Shown here piece after piece: positions 19,111 to 27,068 of a stretch of DNA of 38,580 bases. Location: positions 1 through 38,580 of the forward strand of contig JANXXU010000004.1 of the NCBI GenBank assembly GCA_025350465.1, in the 5' to 3' direction. A program made the position numbers and the translations under genes. The notes under the pieces were generated by a model. The model was not told the origin of the DNA, did not search any database, and saw nothing but the letters and a program-made list of their open reading frames with translations. The DNA is from Alphaproteobacteria bacterium (GTDB taxonomy: Bacteria > Pseudomonadota > Alphaproteobacteria > Micropepsales > Micropepsaceae). Within the stretch, counting starts at the first letter, position 1, and each line of letters starts with the position of its first letter.

Positions 19111-21696
19111 TCAATCCACCTTCATCGCCTCGGCGATCAGGTCGTCAGAAGCCTCGGCGAGCAACGCCTCGTTCGCATCCATTCCGACCGGGACTTTGCC
19201 GATATCGAGTAAGACCGGCACCGCCAACGGTGAAACGCGATCGAGCTTTTTCAACACGATGTTGCCTTTGATGCGTCGGAGCAGATCGCCGAGGCGCGTG
19301 ATGTCGAGCGCAAACGCGGCCGCATCTTCGTAGGCCGCGCGCAGCAGAATGTGATCGGGTTGATGACTGCGCAGCACGTCATAGATGAGGTCCGACGAAA
19401 ACGTAACTTGGCGGCCTGATTTCTCCTCCGCCGGATGGCGCCGCTCGATCAAACCGGCGATCACAGCGCACTGACGGAAGCTGCGCTTCAGCAACGCGGA
19501 TTCGCCGAGCCACGCGTCGAGGTCGTCGCCCAACATGTCTTCATCGAAGAGACGATTCATATCAAGGGTGTGCATCGGCTTGAGCGCCCACAGCGCGAGA
19601 GAATATTCGCTGGCGACGAAACCGAGCGGCTTTGCCCCGATGCGCTCGAGGCGGCGCGTCAACAGCATACCCAGCGATTGATGGCAAAGCCGCCCGTCAA
19701 ACGGATAACACACGAGATAATGGCGCGAGCCGCGCGGAAACGTTTCGACCAGCATCTGATCGGCGCGCGGCAAAAGTGAGCGCAAACGTTGAATGCCGAG
19801 CCACTCTTTCACCTGATCCGGCAAGAATTGCCAGCGCTTCGGGTCGGCAATCATCTCTCGCACACGCGCTGCAAGGAACGTCGACAGCGGAAACTTGCCG
19901 CCCTCGAACGACGGTATCTTCGGATTGCCGGGCGGCCCCGGCGTCACGATCGCCTCGGTTTCTACAATCCCCTCGAATCGCAGGATTTGGCCGGCGAACA
20001 GAAACGTGTCGCCTTGGCTCAGCTGTTGCAGGAACCACTCTTCGATTTGCCCGAGAATACGCCCGGCATAGGTGACACGCGGTCCGCGATAATTTCGCAC
20101 GACGCGCACCTTGAGCATCGGCGCTTCGACGATGGTGCCGCAGTTCAAACGATAGCGCTGCGCCACTTGCGGGCTCGCCACACGCCAGAGTCCTTCCGGC
20201 GTCTTGCGAAGTTTTGCGTAGCGCTCATAAGCGCGTAGCGCATAGCCGCCCGTTGCAACGTAGTCGATGACTCTGTCGAAATCATCGCGCGTCAAATCGC
20301 GATAGGGCGACGCGGACACAACCTCCGCATAGAGTTCGTCGGCGTTGAACGGCGCCGCCACGGCCATGCCGAGCACATGCTGCGCCAACACGTCGAGGGC
20401 GCCATGGCGCGGCTTCTCGCCGTCGAGCTCGCCATGCGCCAGCGCATCTCGGGCCGCTTCGCACTCGAGCACTTCGAAGCGATTGGCGGGCACCAGCAAC
20501 GCGCGCGACGGCTCGTTCATCCGGTGGTTGGAGCGGCCGATACGCTGCGCTAGGCGGCTCGCACCCTTCGGCGCGCCGACATTGATCACGAGATCGACTG
20601 CGCCCCAATCGATGCCGAGGTCGAGCGTCGACGTGCAAACGACAGCGCGCAAAGTGCCTTTGATCATAGCCGCTTCGACCTTGCGCCGCTGCTCCGGCGA
20701 CAGCGAACCGTGATGCAAGGCAATCGGCAGGTTTTCGTCGTTGATCGACCACAATTGCTGAAACACGAACTCTGCCTGCATGCGCGTATTGACGAAGACG
20801 AGCGCCGTCGTTGCTTTTTTGATTTGCGCCAAAATATCGGCAAGCGCGTGGCGCGCCATGTGACCGGCCCACGGCACGTCCTTTTCGCTTGCGAGAATCG
20901 AGACGTCCGGCTTCGCGCCGGGCGCGCCTTTGATGTGCGCCACACGCCGGTCTTCGCCTGCGCGTTGGGGTACGAGGTAGCGTCCGAGAATTTCGGGCTC
21001 GGCCACCGTCGCCGACAGACCGACACGCCGATGACCGGGCGCGAGCACCGAGAGCCGTGCCAGATCGAGTGCTAAGAGGTCGCCGCGCTTCGAGGGCGCG
21101 AGGGCATGAAGCTCGTCGAGGATGACGCAACGCAAATTGCCGAACATCCGCGGTGCATCGCCGGAGGCAAGCAACAGCGCGACTTGCTCGGGTGTTGTCA
21201 GCAGAAAGTCCGGCGGCAAATGACGTTGCCTCTGCCGGCGGTGCGCCGAAGTATCGCCGGTACGCGTTTCGATCTTCACCGGCAATTTCATCTCGCGCGC
21301 CGGCGCCTCGAGATTGCGTGCGATGTCCACGGCAAGCGCCTTCAAAGGCGAAATATAAAGTGTGTGCACACCGCGTGGCCGCACTGCGGCGCGCGCCTTG
21401 AGTTTGGCGATGAGCGGATTGACGTATCGTTCGTCCTCTCCCACAAACGGGGGAAGTGGCGCGCGCTGCACGACGGATGGCGACGACGACAGCTCGATCA
21501 GCGACGGCAGAAACCCCGCGAGCGTCTTGCCCCCGCCGGTCGGCGCCGTAAGCAATACGGATTGCCCATTTGCGCCCGCCTCGACCAGCGCGAGTTGGAA
21601 CGGCCGCGGGCTCCAGCCGCGCGAGGCGAACCAGGCCGCGAAGACCGGCGGCAAGACAGTCGAATTCTCGGTCTTCGGGCGCTCGCGGACGGACAT
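19111..21696 (-). CDS. lhr: ligase-associated Lhr-type DEXH-box DNA helicase
   Basis: An 861-residue superfamily 2 helicase, Lhr-core size. Walker A is APTGGGKT (residues 51-58) and motif II is DELH (194-197). Other helicase blocks are 'GLSATVAEPEILGRYL', 'ALVFVNTRMQAEFVFQQL', 'STLDLGIDWGAVDLVIN' and 'RLAQRIGRSNHR' (motif VI). The C-terminal third has the winged-helix and Lhr-specific domains. It unwinds DNA or RNA:DNA hybrids 3' to 5' using ATP. It is divergent from the exonuclease-ligase pair, with only 43 bases between the starts, and upstream of pdeM. All four genes form a conserved repair module in proteobacteria. Confidence 0.93.
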   Translation of the reverse strand: MSVRERPKTENSTVLPPVFAAWFASRGWSPRPFQLALVEAGANGQSVLLTAPTGGGKTLAGFLPSLIELSSSPSVVQRAPLPPFVGEDERYVNPLIAKLKARAAVRPRGVHTLYISPLKALAVDIARNLEAPAREMKLPVKIETRTGDTSAHRRQRQRHLPPDFLLTTPEQVALLLASGDAPRMFGNLRCVILDELHALAPSKRGDLLALDLARLSVLAPGHRRVGLSATVAEPEILGRYLVPQRAGEDRRVAHIKGAPGAKPDVSILASEKDVPWAGHMARHALADILAQIKKATTALVFVNTRMQAEFVFQQLWSINDENLPIALHHGSLSPEQRRKVEAAMIKGTLRAVVCTSTLDLGIDWGAVDLVINVGAPKGASRLAQRIGRSNHRMNEPSRALLVPANRFEVLECEAARDALAHGELDGEKPRHGALDVLAQHVLGMAVAAPFNADELYAEVVSASPYRDLTRDDFDRVIDYVATGGYALRAYERYAKLRKTPEGLWRVASPQVAQRYRLNCGTIVEAPMLKVRVVRNYRGPRVTYAGRILGQIEEWFLQQLSQGDTFLFAGQILRFEGIVETEAIVTPGPPGNPKIPSFEGGKFPLSTFLAARVREMIADPKRWQFLPDQVKEWLGIQRLRSLLPRADQMLVETFPRGSRHYLVCYPFDGRLCHQSLGMLLTRRLERIGAKPLGFVASEYSLALWALKPMHTLDMNRLFDEDMLGDDLDAWLGESALLKRSFRQCAVIAGLIERRHPAEEKSGRQVTFSSDLIYDVLRSHQPDHILLRAAYEDAAAFALDITRLGDLLRRIKGNIVLKKLDRVSPLAVPVLLDIGKVPVGMDANEALLAEASDDLIAEAMKVD

Positions 21697-21708
21697 GATG
21701 CCAGGTAT

Positions 21709-21734
21709 GGACCTTCGTTGGTCCTACTATAGTG
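21709..21734. promoter_or_regulatory. shared divergent promoter region of the repair cluster
   Basis: The 43-bp gap between the helicase and exonuclease starts contains GGACC-N6-GGTCC (21709-21724) and the palindrome ACTATAGT (21727-21734), which resembles a -10 element on both strands. No GTTC-N7-GTTC LexA box is present here. Both transcripts may be controlled by one regulator at the inverted repeat, or be nearly leaderless. Confidence 0.35.
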
Positions 21735-21739
21735 CACAC

Positions 21740-22816
21740 ATGGCGACTGCGCTTCTTGAACCCAAACCCGGCGGTCTTTACTGCGCCGATGGCGATTTCT
21801 TCGTCGATCCCGTCCGGCCCGTAAAGCGAGCAGTGATCACCCATGGCCACTCCGACCACGCCCGCGCTGGCCATACTGCCGTGCTCGCAACCGCAGAGAC
21901 CTTGGCCATCATGAACGTGCGCTGCGGGCCCAATTTCGCCGGCTCGACGCAGGCCGCACGCTACGGTGAAACCGTTTCTTTCGGCGCCACAAAGGTTACG
22001 CTCAGACCGGCGGGCCACATACTCGGTTCCGCACAAGCGGTCGTCGAACGCGGCGGCGAGCGCATTGTCGTCTCAGGGGACTACAAGCGCCGGCGCGATC
22101 CAACCTGCGCGCGCTTCGAGCCGGTCGAGGCCGACGTCTTCATCACCGAGGCAACCTTCGGCCTCCCCGTCTTCTGCCATCCTCCCGACACGCAGGAGAT
22201 CGCCAAGCTCATGCACTCGGTTGCCGTGTTTCCCGAGCGCGCGCATCTGGTCGGCGCCTATTCGCTCGGCAAGGCGCAGCGTGTGATCGCGCTTCTGCGC
22301 GAAGCGGGTTACGACGCGCCGATCTATTTGCATGGCGCCATGGTCGCCCTCTGCGCCCTTTACGAACGCTTCGGCGTCAAGCTCGGCGCGCTTGTTCCGG
22401 TCGATGAGGTGAAGGACAAGAACTTCGCCGGCCGCATCGTCGTCGCGCCGCCTTCGGCTCTAGGCGATCGCTGGACGCGGCGCCTTGGCGATCACGTCAA
22501 TTCGTTTGCCAGCGGCTGGATGCGCATTCGCGCTCGGGCCCGCCAGCAAGGCGTCGAGTTGCCGCTGATCATTTCTGATCACGCCGATTGGGAAGAACTC
22601 ACCGCGACGGTGAACGAATTGCGGCCACGCGAATTGTGGGTGACGCACGGCCAAGAGGACGCGCTCGTCCATTACGCGAAGAGCATCGGCGTACCGGCGC
22701 GCCCGCTGTCACTCAAGGGCTATGACGACACCGGCGAGGGAGAACCGGAAATGCCAAGCCAAGCCGGTCTATTCCCGGTAAACGGGAACGGGAACGGATC
22801 TACGAACGGTCGTTGA
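21740..22816 (+). CDS. ligase-associated DNA exonuclease (MBL/beta-CASP fold)
   Basis: A 358-residue metallo-beta-lactamase/beta-CASP nuclease. It has HxHxDH at residues 35-40 in 'VITHGHSDHARAGH', 'LRPAGHILGSAQAV' with the next His, 'IVVSGDYKR' with the Asp, and a C-terminal 'ISDHADWEEL' beta-CASP motif. This family member, named for its partner ligase, is related to the SNM1/Artemis and RNase J folds and degrades single-stranded DNA 5' to 3' in the characterised homolog. The start was set at 21740 so that the protein begins 'MATALLEPKPGGLYC', like its relatives; ATG 21707 is an in-frame alternative. Its stop overlaps the ligase ATG by one base (TGATG). Confidence 0.92.
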   Translation: MATALLEPKPGGLYCADGDFFVDPVRPVKRAVITHGHSDHARAGHTAVLATAETLAIMNVRCGPNFAGSTQAARYGETVSFGATKVTLRPAGHILGSAQAVVERGGERIVVSGDYKRRRDPTCARFEPVEADVFITEATFGLPVFCHPPDTQEIAKLMHSVAVFPERAHLVGAYSLGKAQRVIALLREAGYDAPIYLHGAMVALCALYERFGVKLGALVPVDEVKDKNFAGRIVVAPPSALGDRWTRRLGDHVNSFASGWMRIRARARQQGVELPLIISDHADWEELTATVNELRPRELWVTHGQEDALVHYAKSIGVPARPLSLKGYDDTGEGEPEMPSQAGLFPVNGNGNGSTNGR

Positions 22817-24408
22817 TGAATCGATTCGCCGAACTTCTGACCGCCCTCGCCTTTCAGCCGCAGCGCAACGGCAAGCTGCGCCTGCTGACCGACTACTTTC
22901 GCACCGTCCGCGATCCCGATCGCGGCTATGCGCTCGCGGGGATCACGGGCGGATTGAGATTTGTCCATGCCAAGCCTGCGCTCATTCGAGGCCTTGTCGA
23001 AGCGCGCATCGATCCGGTCTTGTTCGATCTGTCTTACGACTATGTCGGCGACCTCGCGGAAACCGTCGCATTGATCTGGCCCAGGCGTCACGGCGCCAAT
23101 ATTCCCCCAAGCCTGGGCGAAATCGTCGAAACGCTAGCGACACTCGGCAAGGCGGAATTGCCGCGCCGTCTCGAAGTGTGGCTCGATGCACTGGATGCCG
23201 ACGGCCGCCTGGCGCTGATCAAGCTCATCACCGGCGGCTTGCGCGTCGGCGTCTCCGCGCGCCTCGCCAAGACCGCTGTAGCGGCAATCAAAGACGTCGA
23301 TCCGAACGAGATCGAAGAATTATGGCCTGCACTCACGCCCCCGTATCTCGACCTCTTCGCCTGGCTCGACGGTCGCGCCGAGAAGCCGACCGCCAAGGCG
23401 CGTGCCGTCTTTCGCCCCGTGATGCTGGCCCATGCGATTGAGGAGGAAGATTGGCCGAGGCTCGATCCCGCCGATTTCATTGCCGAATGGAAATGGGACG
23501 GCATCCGTGTCCAAGCCGTGAGCGAAGGCGGCGTACAGCGCCTTTATTCACGCACCGGCGAAGATGTTGGCAGTGCATTCCCCGATGTCATCGACGCGCT
23601 GACGGACGAGGTCGTCGTCGACGGCGAGCTCTTGGTCATGCGCAACGGCGAAGCGGCGAGTTTCAACGAGTTGCAGCAACGACTGAACCGCAAAGGTGTC
23701 ACCGCGAAGATGCTGGAGGGATATCCCGCAGGCATCCGCGCATATGACCTCTTGATGCTCGACGGCGAAGATTTGCGCGGCCGCCCCTTCATCGAGCGCC
23801 GTGCCCGCCTTGAAAAATTCATCACCGAACGCAAACCGGCGCGCCTCGATCTCTCGCCTGTTGTGCCTTTCGCCACATGGGCCGATTTGGCGGCGCATCG
23901 CGGCCGTCCGCCCTCGCCCGCGGTCGAGGGCATTATGCTAAAGCGCAAGGTGAGTCCCTATCTTCCCGGCCGCGTCAAAGGCGAATGGTGGAAGTGGAAG
24001 CACGATCCGCATCTCGTGGACGCGGTACTCATGTACGCCCAGCGCGGCCATGGCAAACGCTCGTCTTATTATTCCGACTACACCTTCGGCGTTTGGAAAG
24101 GTGAGGAGCTTGTGCCGGTCGGCAAAGCCTATTTCGGTTTCACCGACGAAGAACTCGTCCGCATCGATCGCTTCGTACGCGCGCACACGACGAACAAATT
24201 CGGCCCGGTGCTCGAAGTCACGCACGATCGCAAGACCGGGTTGGTGTTCGAGGTCGCGTTCGAGGGTCTAGCCCGCTCCTCGCGACACAAATCCGGCGTC
24301 GCAATGCGCTTTCCGCGCATCAATCGGTTGCGCTGGGACAAACCGCCTGGGGAAGCCGACACCATCGAGACGCTGGAACGGATGTTGCCAAGTCCGCAAA
24401 TCGGCTAG
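22816..24408 (+). CDS. ATP-dependent DNA ligase of the Lhr/PdeM/exonuclease cluster
   Basis: A 530-residue ATP-dependent DNA ligase. The N-terminal 200 residues are the DNA-binding helical domain. Motif I is 'EWKWDGIRVQ' with nucleophile Lys226; later nucleotidyltransferase motifs are 'RLYSRTGEDV', 'DGELLVM', 'EGIMLKRKVSPYLPGR' and 'GEWWKWK' (motif V). The OB-fold domain ends near 'SRHKSGVAMRFPRINRLRWDK'. Homologs are annotated as cisplatin-damage-response ligase. It seals nicks, presumably after processing by the co-encoded helicase and nucleases. ATG 22816 overlaps the exonuclease stop; a TTG three bases earlier is possible. Confidence 0.93.
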   Translation: MNRFAELLTALAFQPQRNGKLRLLTDYFRTVRDPDRGYALAGITGGLRFVHAKPALIRGLVEARIDPVLFDLSYDYVGDLAETVALIWPRRHGANIPPSLGEIVETLATLGKAELPRRLEVWLDALDADGRLALIKLITGGLRVGVSARLAKTAVAAIKDVDPNEIEELWPALTPPYLDLFAWLDGRAEKPTAKARAVFRPVMLAHAIEEEDWPRLDPADFIAEWKWDGIRVQAVSEGGVQRLYSRTGEDVGSAFPDVIDALTDEVVVDGELLVMRNGEAASFNELQQRLNRKGVTAKMLEGYPAGIRAYDLLMLDGEDLRGRPFIERRARLEKFITERKPARLDLSPVVPFATWADLAAHRGRPPSPAVEGIMLKRKVSPYLPGRVKGEWWKWKHDPHLVDAVLMYAQRGHGKRSSYYSDYTFGVWKGEELVPVGKAYFGFTDEELVRIDRFVRAHTTNKFGPVLEVTHDRKTGLVFEVAFEGLARSSRHKSGVAMRFPRINRLRWDKPPGEADTIETLERMLPSPQIG

Positions 24409-24968: not shown

Positions 24969-25871
24969 ATGACGATGTTCAAAGCCGATCTGTTCAAGGG
25001 CAAACGCTTTCTCGTCACCGGCGGCGGCACTGGTTTGGGCCGCGAGATGGCCGACGAATACGCCAAGCTCGGCGCGGAAGTTTACATCTGCGGCCGCCGC
25101 GGCCCGGTCGTCGAAGAAACGGCGAAAGAGCTTGCGAAGGCGAACAACACGCGCGTGACGGCGCTGGAATGCGACATCCGCGTTCCCGATGCCGTCGAAG
25201 ACATGATGACGCGCATCTTCAACGAAGGCCCGATCGACGGCCTCGTCAACAACGCCGCCGGAAACTTCATCAGCCGCACCAAGGACCTGTCGCCCAACGG
25301 CTTCAACGCCATCGCCAACATCGTTTTTCACGGCACGTTCTACGTCACCCTCGCCGCCGGCAAACGCTGGATCGAGGCGAAGAAGAAAGCGAACGTTATC
25401 TCGATTCTGACGACCTGGGTGTGGAACGGCGGGCCGTTCACTGTACCGTCGGCTATGTCCAAGGCGGGCTTGAACATCATGACCAAATCGCTCGCCGTCG
25501 AATGGGCCCAGCACGGCATTCGCCTCAATGCGATCGCGCCCGGCCCCTTTCCGACCAAAGGCGCATGGGAGCGCCTTAATCCCGGCAGCATCCGCGGCGG
25601 CACGATGGGTACGCAGCAGGACTCCTCCGCCTCCAACAATCCCATGGGCCGCGTCGGCCAGATGCAGGAGCTGCGCAATTTGGCGACGTTCCTGATGGCG
25701 GACGGTTGCGATTACTTGACGGGCGAGACGATCGCGATCGACGGCGGCGCCTTCCTCGCCGGCGGCGGCAACTTCTCTCAGCTCTCGAAGCTCGGTGATT
25801 CCGAGTGGGAGGGAATCCGCCAAATGATCAAAGGCGCCAACGAGAAGGACAGAGCCAAGCGCACGGTTTGA
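24969..25871 (+). CDS. SDR oxidoreductase, 2,4-dienoyl-CoA reductase (DECR)-like
   Basis: A 300-residue short-chain dehydrogenase. It has a TGxxxGxG cofactor motif (VTGGGTGLG) near residue 20, 'ECDIR', 'NNAAGNF', and the active-site region 'TVPSAMSKAGLNIMTKSLAV'. The usual YxxxK is SxxxK here; the conserved 'PSA..KAG......SLA.EW' and the downstream 'APGPFPTKGAWERLNP' resemble mitochondrial 2,4-dienoyl-CoA reductases, which also lack the canonical Tyr position. It probably reduces 2,4-dienoyl-CoA with NADPH during unsaturated fatty-acid breakdown, consistent with the beta-oxidation genes in the window. GAGGA lies 8 bases before ATG 24969. Confidence 0.88.
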   Translation: MTMFKADLFKGKRFLVTGGGTGLGREMADEYAKLGAEVYICGRRGPVVEETAKELAKANNTRVTALECDIRVPDAVEDMMTRIFNEGPIDGLVNNAAGNFISRTKDLSPNGFNAIANIVFHGTFYVTLAAGKRWIEAKKKANVISILTTWVWNGGPFTVPSAMSKAGLNIMTKSLAVEWAQHGIRLNAIAPGPFPTKGAWERLNPGSIRGGTMGTQQDSSASNNPMGRVGQMQELRNLATFLMADGCDYLTGETIAIDGGAFLAGGGNFSQLSKLGDSEWEGIRQMIKGANEKDRAKRTV

Positions 25872-26038
25872 CGGGGTCTGACACCCAAGCCCGCTGTTGT
25901 TCGCTGTAAATTACACGAATTAACAGCGAACGCCGCGATCCCTTGGCAACGCGTAGCTTTTCCTCGACGCGGACAAACACTGCGCATGGCTCGGCGATAT
26001 TTCACCGACCGCGGGCAGATCGAGCGAAATTTCCCAAA
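25872..26038 (-). ncRNA. candidate SOS-induced small RNA
   Basis: The promoter at 26045-26073 should start transcription leftward near 26038. The 166 bases to the end of the SDR gene have no credible protein: the longest reading (ATG at 25987) has no ribosome-binding site and runs on antisense into the SDR. They do contain the strong inverted repeat at 25899-25931. An untranslated RNA, possibly extending antisense to the SDR 3' end, is the simplest reading. The 3' end is undefined. This is inference from the promoter only. Confidence 0.35.
25899..25931. repeat. large inverted repeat in a convergent intergenic gap
   Basis: Left arm GTTCGCTGTAAATT (25899-25912) and right arm AATTAACAGCGAAC (25918-25931) pair over 14 positions with one mismatch around a 5-base centre. 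No T-run follows on either strand, so it is not a standard terminator. Next to it GGGT-N5-ACCC (25874-25886) can also fold. The pair resembles a REP-like or regulatory palindrome, and lies downstream of the SOS-type promoter at 26045-26073. Confidence 0.75.
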
Positions 26039-26044
26039 GACAAC

Positions 26045-26073
26045 AGTATAGAACAAAACACGAACAAAGTCAA
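26045..26073 (-). promoter_or_regulatory. near-consensus sigma-70 promoter with embedded LexA box
   Basis: On the minus strand TTGACT (26073-26068) is followed after exactly 17 bases by TATACT (26050-26045). The spacer contains GTTC-GTGTTTT-GTTC (26065-26051), an exact match to the alphaproteobacterial LexA operator GTTC-N7-GTTC. It lies in the 222-bp gap between the SDR and quinone-oxidoreductase genes, which converge, so neither is its target. Confidence 0.75.
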
Positions 26074-26093
26074 CGGCTGGAGCGACGAAATTC

Positions 26094-27068
26094 CTACATC
26101 GTCAGCACGACTTTGCCGATCACGCGCCGCTCTTGCAGCATGCGCATCGCCTCGCGCGCGCGTTCGAGCGGAAAGGTGGCGCAGACATGCGGCCGGATCT
26201 TTCCTTCCGCTGCCCATGCATCGATCATGCGAATATTCTCGACGCCCTTTTCGGGGAATTGGCGTCCGTATTCGCCGGCGCGCACGCCGACGACCGAGAA
26301 CCCTTTGATCAGCGGCATGTTCACGCTGACCGTCGGAATACGTCCGCTGGTGAAACCGATGACGAGCAGCCGGCCGTTGAAGGCGATGCAGCGGACGCTC
26401 TCGTCGAACACATCGCCGCCCACCGGGTCAAATATGACATCGGCACCCTTGCCGCCGGTGAGATCCTTCACCTTCTCCCGAAAACCGATCGGCGCCAGCA
26501 CATGATCGGCGCCATAGGACTTGAGGAACGCGCGCTTCTCTTCGCTCGATGCCGTCCCGATCACGTGCGCGCCCAAGAGCTTGCCGACATCGACTGCGGC
26601 CAACCCCACACCGCCCGCCGCACCGTGCACCAGCAAGGTTTCGCCACGTTGCAATTCGCCGCGTCGTGCCAGCGCAACGTAAGCCGTCAGATAGGCCGCC
26701 GGGCAGGCCGCGCCATGCGCATAGTCCAGGCGCGCCGGCAACGGCCGCACGGCCTGCTCGGGCACGACGATCTCTTCGGCATAACAACCGAAGCGCGCGC
26801 CGAGGACGGCGCGATCGCCGATCCTCACGCGGGTCACGCCGTCGCCAATGGCGATCACGTCGCCGGCGCCTTCCATGCCCGGCGAGAACGGCAAATCGGG
26901 TTTGAGCTGATACTTGCCTTGCACCATTAAGATGTCGGGAAAATTCACGCTCGCCGCACGCAGGCGAATTTTGACCTCGCCCGGCCTCGGTGGCGGTACG
27001 TCGATATCTCTTAACCGCAGCGTTGAGAGATCATCGGACAGGGCGTCGACGATGAGGGCGCGGCTCAT
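26094..27068 (-). CDS. NADPH:quinone oxidoreductase family protein (zinc-independent MDR)
   Basis: A 324-residue medium-chain reductase of the QOR type. The N-terminal GroES-like domain has 'LRAASVNFPDILMVQGKYQL' and 'FSPGMEGAGDVIAIGDGV'; the Rossmann domain has 'LVHGAAGGVGLAAVDVGKLL' and 'GTASSEEKRAFLKSYGADHV'. No structural-zinc cysteines are present, as in quinone reductases. It reduces quinones or other alpha,beta-unsaturated carbonyls with NADPH. Its ATG overlaps the stop of the upstream esterase by 4 bases, so the two form an operon. Confidence 0.9.
   Translation of the reverse strand: MSRALIVDALSDDLSTLRLRDIDVPPPRPGEVKIRLRAASVNFPDILMVQGKYQLKPDLPFSPGMEGAGDVIAIGDGVTRVRIGDRAVLGARFGCYAEEIVVPEQAVRPLPARLDYAHGAACPAAYLTAYVALARRGELQRGETLLVHGAAGGVGLAAVDVGKLLGAHVIGTASSEEKRAFLKSYGADHVLAPIGFREKVKDLTGGKGADVIFDPVGGDVFDESVRCIAFNGRLLVIGFTSGRIPTVSVNMPLIKGFSVVGVRAGEYGRQFPEKGVENIRMIDAWAAEGKIRPHVCATFPLERAREAMRMLQERRVIGKVVLTM

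Follow-up and report, generated by a model that had tools for sequence, protein, structure and literature searches.

A LexA-type promoter facing no gene as one end of a dispersed, mostly non-coding and probably mobile element in a Micropepsaceae genome

What does a LexA-type promoter drive when no gene lies in front of it? The question is raised by a short gap between two convergent genes in an alphaproteobacterium of the family Micropepsaceae (assembly GCA_025350465.1, contig JANXXU010000004.1, positions 1 to 38,580; this stretch of 38,580 nucleotides is referred to as the window). The original prediction for this site was a locus-specific product of the SOS response, namely a small RNA or a transcript antisense to the neighbouring SDR gene, close to a cluster of DNA-repair genes. 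Here we describe the site, its relatives within the genome and the family, and the explanations that have to be weighed.

Promoter, box and flanking genes

On the minus strand of the window, a -35 hexamer TTGACT (26073-26068) and a -10 hexamer TATACT (26050-26045) are separated by a spacer of 17, and a LexA-type box, GTTCGTGTTTTGTTC (26065-26051), of the form GTTC-N7-GTTC lies between them; the whole unit, TTGACT-17-TATACT, spans 26073-26045, and transcription would be expected to start near 26038. On re-reading, this arrangement is present exactly as first described, and GTTC-N7-GTTC is given as the LexA motif of Caulobacter (PMC12700426). The parts taken singly occur at chance level, with one GTTC-N7-GTTC in the window against 1.5 expected and one promoter in 6 kb against 1.3 expected. 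The nested combination, however, appeared in none of 1500 dinucleotide-preserving shuffles when the box had to lie wholly between hexamers matching at 10 or more of 12 positions, and a looser overlap of box and promoter in one of 1500, so the claim that a chance fit of all three elements is unlikely holds. Across the genome GTTC-N7-GTTC is unenriched (143 against 205 for the reversed pattern, whole count); the tighter form GTTC-N5-TTGTTC, to which the window box belongs, is enriched (27 against 8, whole count). As judged from its sequence, the site is a real LexA-type promoter, which is presumably under LexA control in vivo. It lies in a stop-to-stop gap of 222 bp (25872-26093), on which an SDR gene (24969-25871, plus strand) and a zinc-binding-dehydrogenase/quinone-oxidoreductase-type gene (26094-27068, minus strand), both assigned by Pfam, converge as had been stated, and the reading of a LexA-type promoter that faces no gene is likewise supported.

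A dispersed family with a downstream half-site motif

About 120 nt downstream of the promoter, beyond a non-coding body (25929-26038, minus strand), lies a motif of three half-sites, CGCTGT-N15-ACAGCG-N4-ACAGCG (25928-25892, minus strand), in which the inverted pair CGCTGT-N15-ACAGCG (25928-25902) is followed by a third half-site ACAGCG (25897-25892) 10 bp from the second. A pattern search with up to one mismatch found the inverted pair at 21 places in the genome of the window (whole count) and at none in 10 congeners (control pattern, 0). With the orientation of the motif defined by its third half-site, a GTTC-N7-GTTC box lies within 760 bp upstream on the same strand in 19 of the 21 cases, and downstream or on the opposite strand in none of the 21, where arithmetic from the 143 boxes of the genome gives about 0.013 expected per motif. 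Because of this one-way coupling, the promoter is to be seen as one end of a dispersed element family. The two motifs that lack a box are at C24:97046 and C48:105137 (C numbers denote contigs of this genome, G000).

In 17 of the 19 boxed copies, 103-322 nt separate the box from the motif; in the remaining two, which hold a glyoxalase-like gene and a DUF5681 gene, the distances are 470 and 686 nt. These are the two gene-bearing units of the 21: the boxed glyoxalase-like gene at C25:232870-233381, and the DUF5681 gene at C3:65823-65096 with a window-type LexA promoter in front of it and the half-site motif just past its stop. DUF5681 was considered as the mobiliser of the family and rejected; the genome has one boxed copy, the four copies of congener G002 have no box within about 1.5 kb and the other nine genomes of the genus have no DUF5681, so there is no general link. 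A literature search on DUF5681 listed a phage paper.

The half-sites themselves are conserved more strictly than the pairing between them. The second is whole in all 21 motifs and the first in 20; in the third, ACAG is retained in all 21 and the full half-site in 19. The palindrome pair 7-21, by contrast, is unpaired in 10 of 21. Since the half-sites are nearly invariant while the inner palindrome pairs break, we take the motif for a DNA site; an RNA hairpin was considered and set aside, as the inner pairs break with no compensatory change. The half-sites stand at 0/21/31 bp, and the offsets of 21 and 10 bp put them on approximately one helix face. The motif is thus a candidate protein-binding DNA site.

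When the 222-bp gap was used as a query, at least 12 further places were found in the genome (13 of 56 candidates scored). The one long paralogue (C24:13394-13546) is 78% alike to 25883-26032 of the window over about 150 bp and has its own box, GTTCATGATTTGTTC; the other matches share only a short palindromic stretch. Most copies, which form the main subtype, carry TTGC-17-TATnTT, its -10 overlain by the box GTTCTATnTTTGTTC, and a conserved core of about 60 nt, about 40 nt beyond the promoter. Fifteen copies (13 of G000 and one each of G091 and G009 of the family) went into a covariance model, R1, which gave at least 24 matches in the genome with E no higher than 0.01; 21 of these are below 1e-10, and 13 of the 24 are training copies. 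R1 counts are lower bounds, as part of the candidates were scored (36 of 1527 here, for example). Four of the 24 have the core without the promoter. Among the candidates scored in congener G001 there was no match, and at least 9 of 95 other family genomes reached this E threshold, with strong matches in G091 and G009, weaker ones in G010 and G005, and marginal ones in G002 (at least 10), G006 (at least 3), G007, G078 and G083. The window copy matches R1 in its promoter only (5.1 bits, E 3.6) and is therefore placed in another subtype together with C24:13613 and C39:50727, in which the -10 follows the second GTTC of the box and the 3' motif is that of the main subtype. With the 24 R1 matches and the window subtype, the family comes to about twenty-five copies scattered in the genome. 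By exact pattern (whole count), the promoter occurs 15 times in this genome, six times in G010, of which two (C88, C278) look like near-duplicates, five in G002, four in G009 and once each in G091 and G103. The remaining 90 of the 96 family genomes have none, and the control pattern is absent from every one of the 96. A stricter pattern run over 86 genomes of the order, all of the same family, matched in four.

Copies of the family are found preferentially between the ends of convergent genes. Of the 25 copies with both neighbours called, 13 lie in convergent gaps; the set comprised 26 copies, of which one lacks a left neighbour, and did not contain C39:50727, C3:65823 or C25:232870. For comparison, convergent gaps account for 10% of gaps of at least 100 bp (binomial, 2e-7) and for 13% of intergenic bases (3e-6) in 1.19 Mb of G001. 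This background comes from G001 and not from G000, and genes were called with a simple script based on codon usage. The element is short, non-coding, dispersed and multicopy, all of which are MITE-like traits, with a gene in two boxed units. Three copies have no consistent terminal inverted repeats: in those of the window and C7 no inverted repeat links the two approximate element ends, and in the C24 copy, an imperfect 12-nt inverted pair (83%) joins the end of the box and the end of the motif. No direct repeat of 8 nt or more surrounds the window copy, again with approximate ends. A phage origin was rejected, with no exact match to the strict form of the motif in viral contigs and nine to the promoter pattern. 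The nine viral contigs carry the TTGC-type LexA promoter pattern; L361, L362 and L366 are identical there, as are L363 and L369. A shared small peptide after the promoter was also rejected by eye, as an MCAPNC-like start present in several R1 copies is shortened or lost in others.

The gap in congeners and arrays in other species

In ten congeners searched for both flanking genes, the two are directly adjacent in G001, G002, G008 and G010, with stop-to-stop gaps of 41, 24, 10 and -4 bp, and neither the box nor the half-site motif is present in any of these four gaps. The original prediction had named loss of the box and promoter from close relatives that retain the flanking genes as something that would refute it, and both are absent from four of four congeners with adjacent genes. 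Given these short gaps, free of box and motif, the 222 bp of the window look like an insertion, and we take the interval 25872-26093 (minus strand) as the putative inserted element with approximate ends. The closest copy of the oxidoreductase gene is that of G001 (87%), and parsimony, rather than a tree, would on that basis place the entry of the element in the lineage of the window's genome. It was thus very probably inserted at this locus in that lineage. In G004 and G005, 914 and 922 bp separate the pair and hold a frame of about 300 aa, inside which a GTTC-N7-GTTC falls in G004; with another gene between the pair in these two, the gap has been altered more than once within the genus. None of the eight congener loci scanned has the half-site motif. 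The gap count leaves out G007 and G003, where the SDR gene and the oxidoreductase gene, respectively, are cut by a contig end, as well as G006 and G009, which have only copies of 46% identity or less. A comparison of the flanks of 27 other loci with about 1.19 Mb of G001 (about a quarter; 60 stretches, 1,185,779 bases) gave no second clean empty site: both flanks were found at two element loci (C29, C44), each obscured by extra unrelated sequence, and the comparative evidence for insertion is clean at one locus only.

In some other copies and species the promoter is followed by a different array. A search of 43 copies looked for five similar 8-nt words spaced at 0/11/22/53/61-62 downstream of the box. 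With a copy called positive if none of 60 shuffles did as well, there were 18 positives in six genomes: 4/4 in G009, 2/5 in G010, 5/9 in G002, 1/1 in G005, 1/1 in G007 and 5/20 in G000, with 0/3 in G006. Two more G010 copies carry four of the five words, a level that 1 and 2 of 60 shuffles also reach. The test is not independent for G000, G002, G009 and G010 because the offsets were read off copies there; G005 and G007 are outside that set, though viewed by eye earlier. The words differ, being TGTGACGG, TGTTACGG or GTGATGGC, GTTACGG or GAACGGAT, CTAACGGA, CCACGCAT and TGYAACGG. The window copy lacks the five-word array (24 of 40, with 60 of 60 shuffles as high).

Both promoter variants also occur before genes. 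Among the matches listed from other bacteria, the frames preceded by the TTGC-type include recA-, uvrA-, dinB-, photolyase- and dnaE2-like ones (80 loci, names assigned by eye). The window-type variant turned up only ahead of a DUF3631 gene in G010, an unassigned frame on contig C2 of G000 and the DUF5681 gene, none of which is a textbook SOS gene. The frames behind the LexA-type promoters at G000:C2:1793 and G010:C185 are related by eye; that of G010 holds DUF3631, that of C2 had no Pfam match in the part scanned, and together they are possibly a damage-induced gene kept in the genus. At C16:36664 of G000, a LexA-type box precedes a short frame with an IS1595-type transposase zinc ribbon; this region is kept in G001 with a similar box in that stretch, and a pattern search did not find the half-site motif on contig C16. 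At C7:189760, the box GTTCTTGATTTGTTC stands directly before a radical SAM gene, and G001 has a box of the same sequence.

Explanations of the element and what they would mean

We consider it somewhat better than an even proposition that the promoter belongs to a LexA-controlled, non-autonomous, mostly non-coding and probably mobile dispersed element. Such an element would have a LexA-repressed sigma-70 promoter at one end and, inward of it, a fixed site of helically phased half-sites, three at 0/21/31 bp here and five-word arrays in some other copies and species. DNA damage would remove LexA, and the freed promoter would then fire a short transcript through the half-site DNA. A protein supplied in trans, perhaps of the recombinase or replication-initiator type, would read the half-sites and move or copy the element, and copies would survive mainly in the gaps between convergent genes.

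Parts of this scheme are familiar from known systems. LexA-regulated integron integrases are an SOS-controlled recombination system with half-site DNA targets, and they resemble the proposed element in both SOS control and half-site targets, while their half-sites are presumably different from those of the window family, at the loci of which no integrase or cassette array was noticed. Bacterial MITE-type repeats with promoters, such as the Correia elements of Neisseria and others, are likewise small and dispersed, lie largely between genes, vary in presence among related genomes and carry sigma-70-like promoters; however, Correia elements lie mainly just upstream of genes rather than in convergent gaps as do 13 of the 25 copies here, and the main text of the review that describes these repeats does not contain "LexA" or "SOS" (PMC10969869). 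The lack of consistent terminal inverted repeats in three copies with approximate ends may also set the window family apart from MITE repeats. ISCR elements are also described as mobile with a LexA-controlled promoter, but theirs serves an encoded transposase (PMC13393415), whereas most copies of the window family have no gene between promoter and motif. The dinQ unit of E. coli, a LexA-controlled small RNA and small-peptide unit, shares an SOS promoter that drives short transcripts, although it is a single locus with a defined peptide and antisense RNAs (PMC3567139). The window family is dispersed, and no reading frame shared among its copies was apparent by eye.

The main rival to the mobile element is a multicopy family of SOS-induced small RNAs, in which the RNA would be the product, the copies would have spread by duplication and the window copy would be a divergent member. 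This is possible, and we hold it to be the lesser prospect. It is kept alive by two observations: in the R1 core hairpin 3 of 5 pairs are changed on both sides with 94.7% of cells paired, a covariation score reached by none of 500 shuffles, and the predicted transcript of the window folds more stably than all 200 shuffles made of it (z -2.8). The R1 core is moreover common to single copies in G091 and G009 (strong) and in G010 and G005 (weaker). However, compensatory change in the hairpin stands out on two of three covariation measures, since the number of further pair types is matched by 313 of 500 shuffles; related sequences may outscore shuffles in such tests, and conservation of the box in the alignment is partly by choice because the copies were picked by box. 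A small-RNA family also sits poorly with the 3' motif, which is constrained as DNA half-sites and not as pairs, and with the copies in G009, G010 and G002, where most promoters by eye run into other sequence. In Rfam, neither the window nor any of 13 other loci reached a gathering score, and the nine weak matches at five loci fall far below.

We regard a locus-specific RNA of the kind first proposed, acting on the SDR gene, as improbable. The promoter and box on which it was built are real, and no terminator-like site was listed between the promoter and the antisense strand of the SDR gene, so that a damage-induced transcript, even one that runs antisense into this gene, is possible. Nonetheless, both are missing from the four congeners that keep the genes adjacent, and copies of the element adjoin many unrelated genes, which leaves a role tied to this locus unsupported. 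The repair genes are indeed nearby, with an Lhr-type helicase and an ATP-dependent DNA ligase encoded at 19114-24405 of the window, but nearness means little given that copies sit on many contigs. Quite improbable, in our view, are LexA decoy or operator sites that titrate LexA or only regulate, with no meaningful transcript or movement: of the 27 boxes of the tight form in the genome, 18 fall within R1 copies or precede the motif, yet the -35 and -10 hexamers and their spacing, neither of which a pure decoy needs, are kept with the box, and the one-way coupling to the half-site motif would be left unexplained. A chance promoter-like sequence has next to no probability, even though its parts are singly at chance frequency in the window and GTTC-N7-GTTC is unenriched in the genome, as the shuffles and the coupling in 19 of 21 contradict it.

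For the mobile element that we favour, a broader suggestion can be put forward tentatively, namely that it might represent a previously undescribed class of SOS-licensed non-coding mobile elements that combine a LexA promoter with a phased array (0/11/22/53/61-62 or 0/21/31), the words of which turn over between species as if following a fast-changing cognate recombinase or initiator. Among the papers listed in literature searches, none on a LexA-boxed dispersed repeat or small RNA family like the window element was seen. The locus also carries a caution, in that a LexA promoter of good quality with "nothing" in front of it may belong to a repeat and not to a regulatory RNA gene. The arrays, with their fixed geometry and changing words, offer a direct handle on the protein that would read them. 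Should transcription and movement both be borne out, DNA damage would simultaneously activate two dozen scattered, mostly non-coding elements in these bacteria, and the SOS response would be linked to genome rearrangement without an enzyme borne by the element.
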